DNA from: a virus
Reading direction: 5' to 3' (one strand)
Virus record (IMG/VR): IMGVR_UViG_3300028384_000350
Coordinates: 1 to 23,715 of that record
Length of the DNA stretch: 23,715 nucleotides
Positions within the stretch are counted from its first letter, which is position 1, and each line of letters opens with the position of its first letter. Under the pieces are notes generated by a model that made no database searches, was not told where the DNA came from, and was given only the letters and a program-made list of their open reading frames with translations. The position numbers were made by a program, and so were the translations under genes. Shown here in pieces: positions 10,278 through 20,863 of this stretch.

Positions 10278-11783
10278 TTAACCCCACAACTCCAATTCGA
10301 CCTCGTTGTTTGCGGCATCCTCAACGATCGAGATCACGCGAAACAATTTGCCACTGTCGAGATTATAGCGATTAAACGTTATTTTTACCACATCATTCAA
10401 TTTCAATGTGTAAGGTTGAGTCTTTACCATGATTCGATAAAAATCGCGCTGCGCTTTATAGATGTTCAACAACCTGGTCGCCTCGGTTGATGCCGGTGAT
10501 GACTCGGCAAAGAGGCCATTCACAATCAACGCTGTGGAATTTGGATAGGGTGTTTGAACGTTTGTGTCGGTGGCAATCTCAACATTGGCATCACGAACCA
10601 GGAAATCACGTTGCGCCGTTGTGATCGATGCATCAAAATCCGATTCACTCATCACGCGGTGATTCTTTTTATAATCAACTCGAACCTGGTAATTTGGAAC
10701 CGCCGAGGCAAGGCGAGTGATTTCGATGATGTTGGTTGAATCAAACTCGGCATCGGCCGAACCGGTTGCAAGTTCAACGCGGCCAACCTGGAATAAACCA
10801 TCACGATCGAACCCATAAAAACCGCCAACCGTGTTGATGATCCGATCAAGAACATCCGCCACCGTTGTCATGTTCCGATCATAAACGCCAATGGTTGACG
10901 AATTGGCCGTGTTCAATGCGGTGAATGATGCGGTGTCGAAATCCCCTGGATAAGTAAAACCGGCATGATCTTCGACAATGTGTTGAATAATATCCGCCGC
11001 GGTTTCGAGATATGTACCATCGACCTTGGAACCCTTTACATCGGCCGTGATGATGCCAGTTGGTGCCGCAACTAGGGTGAACCGCCCATTGGTCAAATCG
11101 ACCGTGTAATCGGTTGTTAGGGTCAACGCAACGCCGCCCTGGTAAACCGCCGTGATTGCCTCGATGTCGCCATCATGCACCTGGTAAACGTAATTGGTTG
11201 AATCCACCAACACTGGCTCGATGTTGTAAACCTCACCATAACAATGAGGTTTTGGTTGGTTCGCAAGATCACTCGATCCCTCATTGCCACCGGTGCCGGC
11301 GTAAAGTGTGTCTGGATAATCGACCACAAAATCGTTCTGGTCATCCCGCAAGATGATCCGAATAAACAAATCATCGAACTCGATCGAATGCGCCTGGCCA
11401 TCGAATATGGTGAAATAATATTGTAAGGCCGCGCCGGATTCACCAACTCGAACCTCAACCGAACGGCCATCCCAGGCATATCCCGCCCAATCATCGAGGC
11501 CACCATCGGCATTGGTCATCACGATTTCGCCAAATCCAGGTTGCGAGAATCCGCCGATTTTACCCGAGGAAAACATCGATCTCGAGAATGAGATCGGTTC
11601 AACCAATCGAGGCTCGAACAATGTGTTCGCCGGTGATTCCGTTGGTGAGGTCACAAATCCCTCGCCGGAATAATACAACGTCAACTCGGTTGAGGTTGCG
11701 ACATTGTACGGTTTCACGATCAACAAATATTTTTTGTTGGCATAGGGATTGGCAACGAGTTCCGCGAGTGTTGTTGCAACCAT
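10278..11783 (-). CDS. Tail tip / baseplate hub protein
   Basis: This encodes 501 residues. Its position directly after the tape measure, and its strand-rich content (GFGEIVMTNADGGLDDW around 105, WDGRSVEVRVG around 127, then repeated beta blocks), suit a central tail-tip hub. Near the C-terminus, LKLNDVVKITFNRYNLDSGKLFRVISI is typical of hub proteins that carry an OB/LysM-like closing domain. It corresponds by position to lambda L/J-region proteins. The ATG overlaps the tape measure stop by one base (TAATG). Confidence 0.7.
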   Translation of the reverse strand: MVATTLAELVANPYANKKYLLIVKPYNVATSTELTLYYSGEGFVTSPTESPANTLFEPRLVEPISFSRSMFSSGKIGGFSQPGFGEIVMTNADGGLDDWAGYAWDGRSVEVRVGESGAALQYYFTIFDGQAHSIEFDDLFIRIILRDDQNDFVVDYPDTLYAGTGGNEGSSDLANQPKPHCYGEVYNIEPVLVDSTNYVYQVHDGDIEAITAVYQGGVALTLTTDYTVDLTNGRFTLVAAPTGIITADVKGSKVDGTYLETAADIIQHIVEDHAGFTYPGDFDTASFTALNTANSSTIGVYDRNMTTVADVLDRIINTVGGFYGFDRDGLFQVGRVELATGSADAEFDSTNIIEITRLASAVPNYQVRVDYKKNHRVMSESDFDASITTAQRDFLVRDANVEIATDTNVQTPYPNSTALIVNGLFAESSPASTEATRLLNIYKAQRDFYRIMVKTQPYTLKLNDVVKITFNRYNLDSGKLFRVISIVEDAANNEVELELWG

Positions 11784-13249
11784 TATGAACGCGCTCCCGC
11801 AAGTTGACCCGCCGCCATCATCCGCGACATCTGCCGGCGCAATGTGATGATTTCGTCTTTCATATCATTCACCGCGCCAATAAGTTCTGATGCGTTGCCC
11901 TTGATGGGTGCGATCGTTCCGTCACGTTGCGGAATGAACATTTCTGGCCCACGTTCTCCCACCTTTACATTGTCGCCGGCGTGAACGTTTGCACCGTTCA
12001 TCGCGGCCAAATATGGCGAGGCTTCGTTGTAAAGTGTTTTGAATCGTGCCGCTCGATCCTTTTCATAATCGCCGCCGCTGTTAGCCATTCCGCCGGTGAT
12101 GCCGAGAATCTTTTCGGCCAATGCGGATGATAGGCCATCGACAAACGTATCCTTGGCCAACTCGATCCCGACCGATGTGGCGATTGCGCTCATATTACCC
12201 GCGCCAAGAATACCCGCCGCAAACGATTCCGAGATTCCGGCGGTGATCGAACTCACCAATCCAGAACCACCGGCAAGGTTTCCGATGATGGCTGACCCAA
12301 CACCAGGCAAAATGAACCCTGCGGCAAGACCGGCAATGGTCATCAGATCACCGCCCATGATGCCCTCGACCAAATTCTTGATCCCCTCGGCAACCTTGCC
12401 AATCACTTTGCCAATCGCATCAACAATGCCTTTCACCGCGTTTGCGATGCCTTTTAGAATGTCGCCAATGAAATCGAAAATGCCACCAAGAAAAAATCCT
12501 GGTGTCACTGATTCCATCACTCCGGCATCGATCGACATTCCGCCGGTTGGCATTTGACCCGCGTTGACCGCATCAAAGAACCCTTTGCCGAACTTGGAAA
12601 CGCTCGATGCCTGGATGACATATTCGCCGGATGAAACCCGCGCCAAAACATCATCCGCCTTTGGCCCACCAGAACCAGGAACCAAACCACCATCCGCAAA
12701 TTCTAAGGTCGGGAAAATCTTGCCCAAGAAATTCAAACCGGTGGTGATAACCGCTTTCGCCGCAAGATCGGCCAAACCCTTTTTGATGGCGTTGGTGAAT
12801 GTTGAGAAATCAACCTTGCCGGTCATAAAGAAATCGGACAACGTATCTTGTAATGATGAGAATGTCGTTCCGGTGAGATCGGCCATATTCGCCGCATTAT
12901 CGGAAATCGAATTGTAATAATCTTTGACACCCTTGATCGCACCCGCGCCGAATGTCTTTTCGTTCTCGGCGTTATAATCGATGGTCGCGTCTTTGATGTC
13001 CTTGATGATGCCTTTGTATTCATCACCGGTGATAATACCGGCCGCGAATGCTTTCTCCGCGATCTCCTGGCGATCCTTCAAATCCTCGAGGGTTGTGTCG
13101 AGGCCAAGAGCCTCTTTCGCCAATGTGTTCAAGGTTGTTTCCATTTCCTCGAACGTGATGATTCCGGCCGCAACCATCGTTTGCAACGCGGCCTTTTCAT
13201 CCTTCAAGGATGTGATCGCAGTCTCAACCGGCGCAACCTTTTCTTTCAT
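11783..13249 (-). CDS. Tape measure protein, C-terminal part (separated by frame change)
   Basis: This is the C-terminal part of the tape measure, which sets tail length and enters the cell with DNA. The first ATG gives 488 residues, but the frame is open upstream to 13333, adding 28 residues that read naturally into the N-terminal piece (PVEGVGGALDESTISTSDF). No start codon or ribosome binding site precedes ATG 13249, so independent translation is unlikely. Features: charged helices with two AAGIIT repeats (about 31 and 69), a lambda-H-like segment (SSLQDTLSDFFMTGKVDFS near 148-166), FADGGLVPGSGGPKADDVLARV near 197, and hydrophobic Gly-rich stretches (280-400). See the N-terminal part at 13297-14547. 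Confidence 0.8.
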   Translation of the reverse strand: MKEKVAPVETAITSLKDEKAALQTMVAAGIITFEEMETTLNTLAKEALGLDTTLEDLKDRQEIAEKAFAAGIITGDEYKGIIKDIKDATIDYNAENEKTFGAGAIKGVKDYYNSISDNAANMADLTGTTFSSLQDTLSDFFMTGKVDFSTFTNAIKKGLADLAAKAVITTGLNFLGKIFPTLEFADGGLVPGSGGPKADDVLARVSSGEYVIQASSVSKFGKGFFDAVNAGQMPTGGMSIDAGVMESVTPGFFLGGIFDFIGDILKGIANAVKGIVDAIGKVIGKVAEGIKNLVEGIMGGDLMTIAGLAAGFILPGVGSAIIGNLAGGSGLVSSITAGISESFAAGILGAGNMSAIATSVGIELAKDTFVDGLSSALAEKILGITGGMANSGGDYEKDRAARFKTLYNEASPYLAAMNGANVHAGDNVKVGERGPEMFIPQRDGTIAPIKGNASELIGAVNDMKDEIITLRRQMSRMMAAGQLAGARS

Positions 13250-13296: not shown

Positions 13297-14547
13297 CTAA
13301 CGCACCGCCAACACCCTCAACCGGAGTGTTGCGTCATTTGAAAGGATCGATTGGTTTGTGAACTCGGTTTCTTTGTTGAAATCCGAAATCGCATCGGTGA
13401 CGCTCAACAATTCAAGGCCAAGTGCGGCCTCGGCGGTTTCCAACAATGAGGTGAATTTAATCTTTTCGCCGAGTGCCTGGATGCTTGCTTTCAATTCCTC
13501 ATTGAATGCCGCAACCGCGATGCCCCCTGCGGCCGCTGCACCGCCCAAGAGCAACAAGTTCCCTTTGGTGGCTTTCATCACCGTTGCAATGATGGAAAGG
13601 GTGATCTGCGCCCTTGCAATCGCCTTGGCGAACTTAATGACCGAGTTGGCCGTTGCGATCACTTTCTTGATGACCACAATACCAAACACAAGATCGAGGA
13701 TGTCAAACAATGTGTCGGCATTACTGAAAACAAGTTTGAGGCCGGCGGTGAATAACATCAACGCCTTGGTCATCTTGTCCGAGATCAACTTGGCCAACGC
13801 ATCATTCCCATCGATGAACGTTGTCAATTCCTTGATCGATTCCGCCAATGCTCGACCAAATCCGGCCTCACCAATCGAGAACATGAATCCATCAACGGTG
13901 TCCCGCAAGTTGGTGATTGCACCGCCCAGGGTTGCCGCCTGACGCGCTGCACCGCCGGCGAACTGTAGTTGCGCAATTTCGGTGAGTGCATCGATGATTG
14001 AATCGGAATCGTTATTGATGACCTTGGTGATGTCACCCATTTTGAGGGTGAGTTGATCGCCCTCTTTCGATGCCTTAATGCCGAACTCTTTCAATCGCTC
14101 GAACTCGCCAACCGAGGCATCCGCCACCGCTTCCGCGAATTGCATAATTGATTTTGATGTACCGCCGGAAATATCGGCGAATGCCATCAACTGTTTCTCG
14201 GTTGGCTTGATGCCTTGGGCAACCAAGAGGTTGAACGAACCAACAACCTCTTGCAATGAGAATGGCGTTTGCTTTGCGAAATCTTGCAAAATCTTGAACG
14301 CGCCATCCGCGTTTTCAACTGATCCGGTGAAAGTTACGAGCGAGGCTTTAAGGCTTTGAAACTCTTTGTTGACGTTCACAAGGTCACGAACAAACGCGCC
14401 GGCGAACACTGCACCCAGTGCGCCGGCAACTTTTGCAACGTTTAGAAACGCCGTTTCAACTTTACCAAGGTTCGATTGTAAAGTTCGAAACGCTCGAGCC
14501 GTTTCATCTCTTGCGGTTAATCGGGTTTCTAGCCTGTTGGTTGCCAT
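13297..14547 (-). CDS. Tape measure protein, N-terminal part
   Basis: This encodes 416 residues. The start TNRLETRLTARDETARAF and the phrase FRTLQSNLGKVE are typical of phage tape measures that begin with a helical domain. Residues 90-190 contain FAKQTPFSLQEVVGSFNLLVAQGIKP, a known TMP_2-like region, and several hydrophobic helices follow (about 265-345, including LLLLGGAAAAGGIAVAAF). The frame ends at TAG 13299-13297, about 35 bases after the C-terminal frame opens. Joined, the two parts give about 930 residues; at roughly 1.5 angstrom per residue, the known rule for siphophages, the tail would be near 140 nm. The ATG lies inside the GT frame. Confidence 0.85.
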   Translation of the reverse strand: MATNRLETRLTARDETARAFRTLQSNLGKVETAFLNVAKVAGALGAVFAGAFVRDLVNVNKEFQSLKASLVTFTGSVENADGAFKILQDFAKQTPFSLQEVVGSFNLLVAQGIKPTEKQLMAFADISGGTSKSIMQFAEAVADASVGEFERLKEFGIKASKEGDQLTLKMGDITKVINNDSDSIIDALTEIAQLQFAGGAARQAATLGGAITNLRDTVDGFMFSIGEAGFGRALAESIKELTTFIDGNDALAKLISDKMTKALMLFTAGLKLVFSNADTLFDILDLVFGIVVIKKVIATANSVIKFAKAIARAQITLSIIATVMKATKGNLLLLGGAAAAGGIAVAAFNEELKASIQALGEKIKFTSLLETAEAALGLELLSVTDAISDFNKETEFTNQSILSNDATLRLRVLAVR

Positions 14548-16104: not shown

Positions 16105-16416
16105 TTATACTTTCTCCAATGCCAAGGTGGTCATTCCGGTTCCATCATGATCCACAACGCGGATCGTGTAGTTTGTGGAATTTACCACCAACGCATCGCC
16201 CTCGACTGCGCTTGAAACATCATTTGTTCGACATAAAAATCGAGGTTGGCGAACGGCCATCGGAATGTTGCCACCCGCGTCAACCTCAACGATGTCATTG
16301 TCAAAAATACCGTTGACGGTCGATGCCGATCCACCGGTTGGCGTATATGTCGCCGCGACACCGAAATCCTCGATGCCAACAAAAACCGCAAGATCGTCAA
16401 GAGATTCAACCGCCAT
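16105..16416 (-). CDS. Head-tail joining protein (gpFII-like)
   Basis: This encodes 103 residues after AAGGA. It is small and beta-rich: DFGVAATYTPTGGSAS, VNGIFDND, FLCRTNDVSSAVEGDALVVNSTNYTIRVVDHDGTG (interrupted by turns). The pattern GD.lvv...YtIr.....DGtG is a hallmark of lambda gpFII/Gifsy-2-like head-tail joining proteins. It sits after the head genes and before the tail terminator as expected. Confidence 0.75.
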   Translation of the reverse strand: MAVESLDDLAVFVGIEDFGVAATYTPTGGSASTVNGIFDNDIVEVDAGGNIPMAVRQPRFLCRTNDVSSAVEGDALVVNSTNYTIRVVDHDGTGMTTLALEKV

Positions 16417-16689: not shown

Positions 16690-19377
16690 TTATGTTGTTA
16701 GGTCAAGGATCGCCGCGAATGATTCCGCGTGGCGAACCGCAACATCAACATCTTGGAACATTGAGATGCGAGTCGTTCCCGCCGCTGATCCTGTGTAAGG
16801 ATCGACAAGAACATCCAGACCGCCAAACATGCCGATCATCAACTCGCTGAAGTTACCAAAGATCAATGCAGAACAAACGCCGCTTGATGTGCCTTTTGTT
16901 AGGTCACTTGGAACCAGGTTCGATGATGCGACATCGTAGCCCATAACCGTTCCATTTGGATCCATGATGAAGTTGCCCTCAACACCTGACGCTTGTTTCG
17001 AGATTGTACGCATTGATGCAACAACTTTTGGGTTTGTTAGGAACGCCATGTTCCCGCCCATCGCGTTATCAACCGCAACCTCTTTTTCTAGGTCAACAGT
17101 TTTTGCGTATGTCAATGCACCGCCGTTTGTACCGATCGCAACTGAACCGATTCCGGATGTTTGCGTGATACCTGTCGGTTCATTTGATCCACCGCCCTCG
17201 ATGGCAACCTCATCGATTTTCGCTGCGAACTGGCGCAACATGTCATCGCGGATAACTTGCTCAACTGATGGATCAGATTGCATCATCAATTTGCGAGACA
17301 AATCGACATATTGTGCAACTGTTTTTGGTGACATTGTGATCTGGCGGAATGTTGGTGCGCCCTCTGAACCAGGTGCCGCATTCTCCGCAACAAATCCAAC
17401 CGCTGTTTTTGCATTCAACGCCGGAATTGCAACATCGCCGGAAAGGCCGCTCATCATCCGTGCGCCAAGGCTTGCTGTCACTAGCGTTGGACGTAGCGCA
17501 TCAACGAACTCACCGCCAAGGTGATCGGTTGGCTTCAAGAAACCACCGGCCGAATCTGTGCCAACTGTTAGGTCACGTTTGAAAATGTCGCTTGGTACAA
17601 AGAAACCACGCGCGTCTTTTCCTAGACGTTTTGCGATTTCGTCTGAAACCTCACGCTCGAAACCGCCAATGTCACGACCCGCGGCCGCATTGCGGAATGC
17701 GCGCATCAATGAATATTCTTGGCGTTCTTGAACGTTTAGATCAAGGTTGTCCGGTGTTGCGATTGGTTCATCTGCTGATGCAACGGCCAACATGCCGCGG
17801 AATTGCTCAACTGATAGACCGCCTTTGATTGCCTGGTTTGCAAGGTCGCGCTTGTTTTTTGCTGCGCCTAGTTCCAGGATTTCGTTCACAGTTTTGGCGT
17901 ATTCTGCGCGAGCGTTCGCCTCAACCGCTTGAATGTCTTGTTCTGACATGGTTGGTTCCTTTCTTTCGGCTTCTGCCGGAATAGGGGTTGGGGTTTGATC
18001 GATTTCGGCATTGCGGTTCGTTCCCACCGAGTCATCGGCCGGAATCGAAACAATGCTTGCCTCGAAAGGTTTCCACGAACGAACTCGATAGGTGTTCCCA
18101 CCTTCCGCTTTTTCGTCTCGCTCCATACGCCCGATTTGATATCCGATCGAAACATTGTTTCGAACACCATCACGAACGTCATCGTAAATTTCGCTTCCAA
18201 GTTGGCCTTTACTAAACCGAACCGTCGCGCGTAGTCTCCGCGCCGAGGAATCGAGATTTACCGATTCGACAACCCCGATTTGACGCTCGGGGTCATGATC
18301 GAGCAACAAAGGTGCGTTGCCCGAGTTTAAGAATGAAAGATCGATTGATCGATCTGTGTGATCCAGGATTTCCACCCCGAATGAACGCTCAACCGCTTTC
18401 TCACTCGAGATTGAGATCGACATCCGGCGATCATCCTCGGAATCAATTTCGGCATCCATCCGCGTTGCGAACTTGCGAGTTTCCAGTTCGACCGGTGCCT
18501 CGCGTTCTTCTTCGTCTGGTTTATAACCGTTTTCGGCATCAACCTCGACATCGCCCTCGACCATATCGGATTTGCCAAACTCGATGATGTAGGAATCATC
18601 GGTTTCGGTCACGTTTTTGATGTGACGTTGTTCATCCATTTTTCTTTCCTCATCTTGGCCTTTTGTCGATTCCGGATGTCCTTCCGGCAAAAGGTCGGTG
18701 TCGTGCTTGCCGCCCTGGAAACGTCCATTTCGCAAACAGAATAACAAAGAATTGACTCTCGCGAAAGCCCACTGTTCCGGCGATGTCACCCCAGGCCGAA
18801 CCGAACCAGGGTTTGTTTTATATGCGCCAATGCCTCGCAAATAGGATTCGGCCAACATTCCAAGGGTTGCGCGTTTGGTTGGATCGTCGCCGTGTTCCTC
18901 GTTGTGTTCCTCAACTTTATTCTCGAGGCTCTTTCGTGCGGTGTCGGTCAAATCATCGATCGCCCGATCTTTTTTGCCCTCGAGTTTTTTCACCAACTCG
19001 AGAACGACATCTTTCATTTTTTGTTCGCCCAGGTTGCCGATAACACCCCATTTGATCTGAGCAATCACGCCGGCAACGTTCGACAAATTCGGCTCGAGTT
19101 CGCCCGATGCGAATTGTTCGCCATCGCCGAAATGCCTTGCCGCCCATGCCTCGCGCTCTTTGATCCAATCCAAAACCCCCTCGGTTTCGGAACCCTCTCG
19201 CGCTCGACCCCACAAAACAAACGCATCATTCCCTCGAACGTTTCCGCCGGCTCCCCAAACCTCGGGATTGAACTCTTTGATGTTCTCGGCAAACCCTCGA
19301 TCAAATTGCGGATATTCCGAGTTGCGCAATGAAATTTTGAGATCATCGCCCTTTTTAGGGAAATCAGTTGCCATCAT
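16690..19377 (-). CDS. Head polyprotein: N-terminal unknown domain, S78 prohead protease, HK97 major capsid protein
   Basis: One uninterrupted frame of 895 residues. Module 1 (1-246): conserved-looking domain with WIKEREAWAARHF (about 70-82), AGVIAQIKWGVIG (about 101-113) and a C-terminal block with GAYKTNPGSVRPGVTSPEQW and KHDTDLLPEGHP; function unknown. Module 2 (247-476): S78-type protease with LLLDHD (His361), NNVSIGY (Ser410) and FEASIVSIPA (about 438-447). Module 3 (477-895): delta-like helical region, then the HK97 fold from TVGTDSAGGFL onward. GAGGGGG precedes the first ATG (second ATG at 19374). GAGGAA before M247 and AAGGA before M477 suggest that modules 2 and 3 are also translated on their own. 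Confidence 0.9.
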   Translation of the reverse strand: MMATDFPKKGDDLKISLRNSEYPQFDRGFAENIKEFNPEVWGAGGNVRGNDAFVLWGRAREGSETEGVLDWIKEREAWAARHFGDGEQFASGELEPNLSNVAGVIAQIKWGVIGNLGEQKMKDVVLELVKKLEGKKDRAIDDLTDTARKSLENKVEEHNEEHGDDPTKRATLGMLAESYLRGIGAYKTNPGSVRPGVTSPEQWAFARVNSLLFCLRNGRFQGGKHDTDLLPEGHPESTKGQDEERKMDEQRHIKNVTETDDSYIIEFGKSDMVEGDVEVDAENGYKPDEEEREAPVELETRKFATRMDAEIDSEDDRRMSISISSEKAVERSFGVEILDHTDRSIDLSFLNSGNAPLLLDHDPERQIGVVESVNLDSSARRLRATVRFSKGQLGSEIYDDVRDGVRNNVSIGYQIGRMERDEKAEGGNTYRVRSWKPFEASIVSIPADDSVGTNRNAEIDQTPTPIPAEAERKEPTMSEQDIQAVEANARAEYAKTVNEILELGAAKNKRDLANQAIKGGLSVEQFRGMLAVASADEPIATPDNLDLNVQERQEYSLMRAFRNAAAGRDIGGFEREVSDEIAKRLGKDARGFFVPSDIFKRDLTVGTDSAGGFLKPTDHLGGEFVDALRPTLVTASLGARMMSGLSGDVAIPALNAKTAVGFVAENAAPGSEGAPTFRQITMSPKTVAQYVDLSRKLMMQSDPSVEQVIRDDMLRQFAAKIDEVAIEGGGSNEPTGITQTSGIGSVAIGTNGGALTYAKTVDLEKEVAVDNAMGGNMAFLTNPKVVASMRTISKQASGVEGNFIMDPNGTVMGYDVASSNLVPSDLTKGTSSGVCSALIFGNFSELMIGMFGGLDVLVDPYTGSAAGTTRISMFQDVDVAVRHAESFAAILDLTT
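17949..17961 (-). promoter_or_regulatory. Internal ribosome binding site and start for the major capsid protein
   Basis: AAGGA (17961-17957) lies 7 bases before an in-frame ATG (17949-17947) at residue 477. MSEQDIQAVEANARAEYAKT is a typical start of an HK97-type capsid delta domain. It would give a free 419-residue capsid protein in the large excess needed for assembly. Confidence 0.7.
18639..18651 (-). promoter_or_regulatory. Internal ribosome binding site and start for the protease module
   Basis: GAGGAA (18651-18646) lies 6 bases before an in-frame ATG (18639-18637) at residue 247 of the polyprotein. The following MDEQRHIKNVTETDDSYIIE is a natural start for a prohead protease. It would give a 649-residue protease-capsid product. 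Confidence 0.65.
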
Positions 19378-20863
19378 CGTCCCCCTCGGGTTCTTCCATC
19401 GCCGGCATGAATTTCATCGGCCCATAACCGGATTGACCACCGCCGAACGGTTGGAATGCAATCTCGATGCCGCGCTCATCCGCCATTTGTTTCTCGAGAA
19501 CGATTTGATCCATCACATCGGCAATGTCGCGGCCATATTGATTGGCCACATCTTGCATCGACAAAATCCCCGAATTGAGGCCGATCACCGATGCATTCAT
19601 TTCACGTTGTGGATCGACCCAGGCAAACCCACGGCCTCTAAACTCCACATTGTCGGCGAACTTATCAAACCGCGTTGGCGGCAATGGGATCGAACCGTTG
19701 TCCATCGCCGCAAACAACCAGGCGCGGAAAACCGGTTGAACAAAATGCTCGATCATAAAATCGTGCAAAACTTTGTAAAAATCCCGATCCTCGAGTGCGC
19801 CTTGGCGGATCGAGGAATATGATGTTTGGGTCAAATCATTCGCCAATGATGCATATGAAACGCCCAACGCCGATGCGACACCGCGCAAGATCGCGCGTTC
19901 GAAATCGGCAAATGTGTTGGCGTTCGATGATGGATCGAATGATTTGAAATCGACACCTGGCCCAAGTTGATGAAACGTTCCTGGCTCCGCTTCCATGATC
20001 GGTGTGTAGGTGTTTTCAATATCATCGCCAACAAAATCATCGCCCGATGGCGTTGTGAAAAATCCCATCTTGGATGCCGAGATTCTTTCGTTGACCAATA
20101 CCGCCTCGCGCATACCGTTCAACTGTTTAAGAGGCGAAACCGCCGCCGCCATCCAGGGAACACCGCGCGTTTGCTGCGCTCGTTCCGGCAAGAATATATG
20201 TAGAATTTTATCGGCCGTGATGCGCGTTCTCCGCGTTGCCAGGCTCGATGTGTATTCATTGTCCCCAGGATGCGCGGTCAATAGGTGATAGGCAACCGGT
20301 TTGTGGAATCGATCGATCTCAACACCCATTCGAATCTTGTTGCCATTCGCCAAGGTTTCGTTGTGGTTCTCATCCAACAAATCAACCTCGAGAAATTCGA
20401 TCGCAAATCCGAAATCGTTTTGTGGATAGTTGACCAGGCGAACCAACAATTCACCATCACGCGCCAATGCCTCGGCCGCAAACCGTTGCGCATCTTTCCA
20501 AGAATACCGGCCATCAACCGTGCAATTCCCCTTGCGCGACCAGGCTTTGAATGCGTTCTCGATGATCGTGTTGCCTGGCGCATCGAACGTGCCGTTCGCA
20601 TTCTTGGCCTTAACTTGCAACGAAATCCCTTTTTCACCAACAACATTGGTGCGGATTAGCTGCATAAACCGCCGCGCATATTCATCATTTCTGGCAAGAT
20701 CGCGGCAACGGTATCGAATCTGTTGCAATGCCGCCTTGATTTCTGAATCGGCGGATCGGCTCGATGCTACGAAATCCGAAAACAAACGACCGCCTTGCGC
20801 GGCCTTATATGAGCGGCGTTTCGTTGGTTTGGTGTTCCTTTTCAAAAAATCAAAAACGCCCAT
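19364..20863 (-). CDS. Portal protein, lambda gpB family
   Basis: This encodes 499 residues; the portal forms the dodecameric ring through which DNA is packaged and ejected. Matches to lambda-type portals: RSADSEIKAALQQIRYRCRDLARNDEYARR (interrupted here by helices, about 37-65), NVVGEKGISLQ (about 74-84), LARDGELLVRLV (about 131-143), FLPERAQQTRGVPW (about 226-239) and LGVSYASLANDLTQ near 340. The C-terminus is acidic (EEPEGDDDGN). Size is in the usual range of 480-540. It lies between a gpW-like gene and the protease/capsid polyprotein, which it overlaps by 14 bases. Confidence 0.9.
   Translation of the reverse strand: MGVFDFLKRNTKPTKRRSYKAAQGGRLFSDFVASSRSADSEIKAALQQIRYRCRDLARNDEYARRFMQLIRTNVVGEKGISLQVKAKNANGTFDAPGNTIIENAFKAWSRKGNCTVDGRYSWKDAQRFAAEALARDGELLVRLVNYPQNDFGFAIEFLEVDLLDENHNETLANGNKIRMGVEIDRFHKPVAYHLLTAHPGDNEYTSSLATRRTRITADKILHIFLPERAQQTRGVPWMAAAVSPLKQLNGMREAVLVNERISASKMGFFTTPSGDDFVGDDIENTYTPIMEAEPGTFHQLGPGVDFKSFDPSSNANTFADFERAILRGVASALGVSYASLANDLTQTSYSSIRQGALEDRDFYKVLHDFMIEHFVQPVFRAWLFAAMDNGSIPLPPTRFDKFADNVEFRGRGFAWVDPQREMNASVIGLNSGILSMQDVANQYGRDIADVMDQIVLEKQMADERGIEIAFQPFGGGQSGYGPMKFMPAMEEPEGDDDGN

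Follow-up and report, generated by a model that had tools for sequence, protein, structure and literature searches.

The head gene described here, an 895-codon open frame on the minus strand (19377-16690), is most probably a nested, carboxy-coterminal gene with two and perhaps three products, and we put the probability of this reading at roughly 0.87. The window, i.e. the whole stretch of DNA that was analyzed, comprises 23,715 bases of an IMG/VR record, and its contig is a siphovirus related to the roseophages CRP-821 and CRP-822. The frame is open throughout, start signals within it are conserved, and its codon usage switches to high-expression codons at the capsid ATG. From these sequence comparisons we infer the actual products, their ratio, their co-assembly and their cleavage. 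Translation from codon 1 would give a rare 895-aa precursor consisting of an amino-terminal module (module 1), a protease and a capsid protein. An internal Shine-Dalgarno (SD) sequence and ATG at 17949 would account for the bulk of the capsid precursor, a 419-aa protein made up of the delta domain and the HK97 fold, and a start at 18639 might add a protease-capsid form of 649 aa. Since the capsid C-terminus is common to all forms, a few long subunits could co-assemble with many short ones and would bring the protease, together with module 1, into the prohead. There the protease would cut itself away and would also remove the delta domains.

The fusion gene (16690-19377, minus strand) lies within a series of head and tail genes. 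Genes for the terminase large subunit, a connector protein and a lambda-type portal are found upstream, and the portal gene (19364-20863, minus strand) overlaps at its 3' end with the first 14 nt of the fusion gene. Downstream are a head closure or head-tail attachment protein (16105-16416, minus strand) and genes for tail terminator, tail tube and tape measure. Two adjacent minus-strand ORFs, 11783-13249 and 13297-14547, match the C- and N-terminal parts of tape measure families, respectively, which would fit either a tape measure divided over two genes or a break in the frame.

The earlier note, made from the letters alone, had read the frame as an unknown domain, an S78 prohead protease and an HK97 capsid protein, and profile searches recovered this organization on the minus strand, which the note had left unstated. 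Peptidase_S78 of Pfam was found at residues 349-451 (E 2e-10, 41.5 bits with a cut-off of 21) and Phage_capsid at residues 621-889 (E 7e-36), and the capsid region matches PDB entry 8gta at the sequence level (E 9e-32). Fused protease-capsid genes are already known, as the note had also remarked, and residues 308-890 match phrog_617, 'major head protein' (E 1e-139). The score against NCBIfam NF045541, 145.6 bits with a cut-off of 525, places the window protein outside this exact family. The AlphaFold2 model of the whole 895-aa frame is of modest confidence (pLDDT 65).

A total of 80 IMG/VR loci were collected as relatives. Module 1, protease and capsid occur together in 84 uncut ORFs from all collected loci, some of which overlap, and the isolate CRP-821 carries a comparable fused CDS of 975 codons including the stop. 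A sequencing or assembly artefact as the source of the fusion was thus ruled out by dozens of contigs and an isolate frame. The note had named, as a finding that would count against it, homologues with separate genes only and a fusion that is an artefact; some relatives do encode module 1 and protease as one gene and the capsid as another, and dozens of fused forms exist beside them. The three-part form is common, and protease-capsid fusions as such are already known. More distant two-part fusions of protease and capsid are found in VP882, phiHAP-1, RcCronus, FoX5, S-LBS1 and R4C. The R4C capsid fusion gave no matches when used as a query against viral contigs. An alignment of distant fusions was used to find a second, largely separate set of 52 further lineages.

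The evidence is strongest for the capsid start. An in-frame ATG at residue 477 (17947-17949, minus strand) is the putative start of the 419-aa capsid precursor, and is preceded, as the note had pointed out, by the SD sequence AAGGA. This sequence (17957-17961, minus strand; dG -5.6 kcal/mol) lies 7 nt from the ATG. This SD is moderate in strength and is equalled at 6 of the 25 other in-frame ATGs of the window. The protease ends in a conserved PAD/VGVGR motif and is followed by a variable linker; this linker contains a Met in nearly all relatives of the first set with the capsid junction read, not all of which are independent. An internal start was scored when an in-frame ATG in the protease-capsid linker was accompanied by an SD with dG <= -5 kcal/mol, and the expectation was taken from the same ORFs. 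By this measure the ATG with SD is present in 18 of 23 lineages (4.4 expected, P 4.5e-11) and, after the protease, in 39 of the 52 further lineages (9.3 expected, P 3e-23), where lineages are 70% clusters and are not phylogenetically independent. Compared with synonymous recodings that leave the peptide unchanged, the capsid SD is also stronger, by a mean of 2.0 kcal/mol (60 of 68 lineages, P 9e-10), a signal that is strong only as a pooled shift and weak lineage by lineage (combined P 0.003-0.006). The control of 285 upstream Met codons gave a shift of 0.04 kcal/mol, i.e. none. Folding of the mRNA at the capsid ATG is weaker than in the rest of the frame (-5.0 versus -10.9 kcal/mol, 61 of 68 lineages), which is in part due to the composition of the linker.

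Exceptions are present among the relatives. The fusions of S-LBS1 and S-CBS3 possess the capsid ATG and lack the SD, and three protease-capsid fusions (L188, L219 and L245) have no Met within 60 codons after the protease end motif, where only ATG starts were scored. Taken together, the comparisons strongly support a nested translation of the capsid from residue 477. The capsid ATG with its SD is internal, in frame and conserved, and it lies at a domain boundary, as expected of a gene of the lambda C/Nu3 kind. In the AlphaFold2 model it falls in a low-confidence linker (455-478), and the ATG of residue 247 falls in another (240-253), so that the 'exact' placing of both ATGs at module boundaries in the note agrees with the predicted structure. 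No report of internal capsid starts in protease-capsid fusions was found in the part of the open-access literature that was covered.

Codon usage provides a second line of evidence. In the window, a two-segment codon model gives a log-likelihood ratio of 65.0 at codon 503 and 63.4 at codon 477, with a shuffle maximum of 41. The same model detects no second break within residues 1-476 or within the capsid; the best split inside residues 1-476 reaches 26.4 versus a shuffle average of 30.7. Across the relatives the break clusters near the capsid ATG, and it is significant in 42 of 54 fusion ORFs versus 5 of 79 other long ORFs. In the second set only 25 of the 52 lineages show a significant break, 16 of them within 40 codons of the capsid ATG. 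The direction of the switch was scored with high-expression codons, namely C-ending codons for F, Y, H, N, D and I and CGY codons for Arg. The capsid part is richer in C-ending codons in 17 of 19 lineages and in CGY Arg in 16 of 19, and the second set gives 49 and 48 of 52, respectively. Terminase, portal and tape measure of the window resemble module 1 and the protease in codon usage, and the tail tube is nearest to the capsid. The switch lends indirect support to an excess of the putative shorter product.

Two other causes of these signals were considered. One is that the capsid is a foreign module acquired by recombination, the codon break reflecting its origin and not its expression. Capsid swaps are real: three relatives (L023, L024 and L027) are about 90% identical to the window through module 1, protease and the first ~50 capsid residues and about 40% identical thereafter, which is a capsid swap with the junction near residue 525, in the delta domain. 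However, the codon break of L023 stays at -4 to +13 around the capsid ATG, away from the swap, and this disfavours recombination as its cause. Moreover, a neutral swap would give a random direction, whereas the direction is toward high expression in almost all lineages, and relatives with a separate capsid gene show a similar codon difference (16 of 20). We consider the recombination origin scarcely credible. The other is an internal promoter or mRNA processing that over-expresses the capsid, with the internal SD-ATG serving a shorter mRNA. It would account equally well for the codon switch and for the SD-ATG, but promoter-like matches in the region are at chance level, and the coding strand has none immediately before 17949, as judged from sigma-70-type motifs only. 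An internal sigma-70 promoter was thus rejected, and this explanation as a whole appears improbable.

Nested translation may also extend to the protease. A second in-frame ATG lies at residue 247 (18637-18639, minus strand) and would start the 649-aa protease-capsid product; its SD sequence, GAGGAA (18646-18651, minus strand), has a dG of -6.3 kcal/mol, and both elements are present as the note had described them. In the window's own cluster, Met247 and the SD are found in 27 of 27 members. Across 10 clusters the protease junction has a Met in 8 (2.4 expected) and a Met with SD in 4 (0.26 expected), and in 8 of the 10 the SD outscores recodings that preserve the peptide (P 0.035). On these comparisons the start at 247 is probably in use in the clade of the window and is not universal.

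The note had proposed nested translation of three products, which would set protease:capsid stoichiometry. With starts 1, 247 and 477 all used, the ratios of module 1, protease and capsid would be set separately; this reading extends the dual-product one and does not exclude it. The part concerning the capsid start has strong comparative support, and the part concerning the protease start is plausible for the window's own cluster and patchy elsewhere. The phage CRP-823 provides a further point in its favour, since a 1-nt insertion there leaves module 1 in a separate, overlapping ORF and splits off the protease-capsid part. The insertion lengthens a T run by one T compared with CRP-821 (L003, 4332-4372) and may be a real variant or a sequencing error. 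Three products are possible and not established, because Met or a good SD is missing at the protease junction in some relatives and because the codon usage of the window shows no break at residue 247, the best split within residues 1-476 scoring below the shuffle average. We give the full set of three products an even chance.

A true polyprotein, in which the 895-aa protein alone is made and autocleavage yields capsid and protease at 1:1, is the opposite case. One continuous frame is kept in dozens of relatives, and the protease module (residues 247-476; 17950-18639, minus strand), with its S78 domain preceded by a low-confidence stretch at 261-315, has the active-site-type residues H361 and S410, invariant in an alignment of 26 sequences; both facts fit such a polyprotein. 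So does the need for cleavage, which must occur in any case: the R4C shell chain whose structure is solved (8gta) has 268 residues, lacks both protease and delta, and starts at the equivalent of window residue 611. The R4C capsid gene (L097, vBDshSR4C_006) is a 629-aa protease-capsid fusion with an SD of -9.5 kcal/mol and an ATG at residue 189, and the structural paper reports 415 copies of this protein, its main text making no mention of a protease (PMC10276861). The polyprotein leaves unexplained, however, why a conserved SD-ATG, low mRNA structure and a codon switch lie inside the frame. In addition, a rough volume estimate, which assumes an inner radius of 190-230 A, indicates that with 415 full-length copies the filled fraction of a T=7 prohead interior would be about 0.64-1.13, so that a prohead built from full-length protein only is unlikely. 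We regard the polyprotein as very unlikely.

In the nested gene, the capsid precursor would consist of two parts. Residues ~477-600 (17578-17949, minus strand) form a probable delta, or scaffold, domain, which is helical in the AlphaFold2 model (helices at 479-585, followed by a low-confidence stretch at 601-623) and ends close to the start of the 8gta chain. Residues ~601-895 (16693-17577, minus strand) correspond to the mature HK97-fold region by Pfam and 8gta. By analogy, the protease would remove the delta domain in a maturation of the HK97 type.

Module 1 (residues 1-246; 18640-19377, minus strand) was described in the note as a leading module with no known role, and this description still holds; the module is no orphan, being widespread and also present on portals and on unfused proteases. 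It forms the C-terminus of portal proteins of ~700 aa in some relatives (e.g., L135 and L090). In others (L140, L178 and L159), which encode the capsid separately, it stands at the N-terminus of the S78 protease, and in Salinibacter phages it occurs within an 852-aa protein whose gene precedes a separate capsid gene. Profile searches with module 1 returned a weak similarity to DUF5824 and nothing informative from PHROGs. The similarity involves the C-terminal block GAYKTNP...SPEQWA...DTDLLP, with 21.9 bits to PF19141 (E 2e-4, residues 174-213) against a cut-off of 25 bits, which some relatives pass (e.g., L140 with 29.6 bits). Structure prediction, a check that the note had proposed, gave an all-helical model (pLDDT 85, pTM 0.55) with no solved relative. 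No informative match to module 1 was found in the PDB, by sequence profile or fold, or in PADLOC; the fold matches in BFVD were to phage proteins, among them XkdF-like and ChaB-annotated ones and prohead proteases. Judging from where the domain occurs, the most probable role of module 1 is that of an accessory domain for head assembly, acting near the portal. In these cases it sits between portal and capsid, which hints at a function where portal and scaffold meet.

The phrog_617 and NF045541 fusions (VP882, phiHAP-1, RcCronus, R4C, FoX, S-CBS3) share with the window the S78 protease followed by the HK97 capsid in one gene and a similar gene order, and differ from it in that the window protein has the extra N-terminal module. 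Roseophages of the CRP-822 type (CRP-821, CRP-406, CRP-811) have the head-gene order and a homologous fusion in common with the window. CRP-821 possesses the DUF5824-like half of module 1 together with protease and capsid; the shared part is ~43% identical, and the N-terminal half of its module 1 is of another type. In the paper on these phages the gene is named capsid, and there is no mention of a protease or a fusion (PMC12629253).

A fused protease-capsid gene raises a problem of stoichiometry, as hundreds of capsid subunits go into a shell for which few proteases suffice, and a conserved internal start would solve it without separate genes. In lambda gpC/gpNu3 and herpesvirus UL26/UL26.5, a protease gene also encodes a shorter product, in frame and with the same C-terminus, that is made in excess; the long form takes the protease into the prohead, and the nested product is the scaffold. 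Here, in contrast, it is the major capsid protein, including the predicted delta domain, that would be nested. HK97 gp4 and gp5 are likewise a protease and a delta-domain capsid, with delta acting as scaffold, but they are encoded by separate genes, whereas the two are fused in the window. If nested translation is true, the annotated capsid start is wrong or incomplete for a large phage family, including R4C with its solved capsid structure, and these phages would provide a straightforward, testable example of a minor capsid subunit whose N-terminal extension carries an enzyme cargo inside. The presence of module 1 on portal or protease points to an unstudied assembly domain. A more tentative proposal, which we think rather doubtful, is that most 'protease-capsid fusion' genes give two or three products with a nested capsid, and that module 1, migrating between portal and protease, would anchor a few long subunits at the portal and thereby start prohead assembly and position the protease.

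Several relatives differ in the composition of this region. Three fusions of ~1120-1180 aa (L058, L061 and L077) carry an extra stretch of ~240 aa, partly Cys-rich, between module 1 and protease. In two others (L033 and L038) the N-terminal module is replaced relative to window residues 1-275, while protease core and capsid are mostly 75-95% identical. In Salinibacter phage 12_10, a gene for a Cas12f/TnpB-like OrfB transposase (L092, 3173-4417) lies inside the head gene region.
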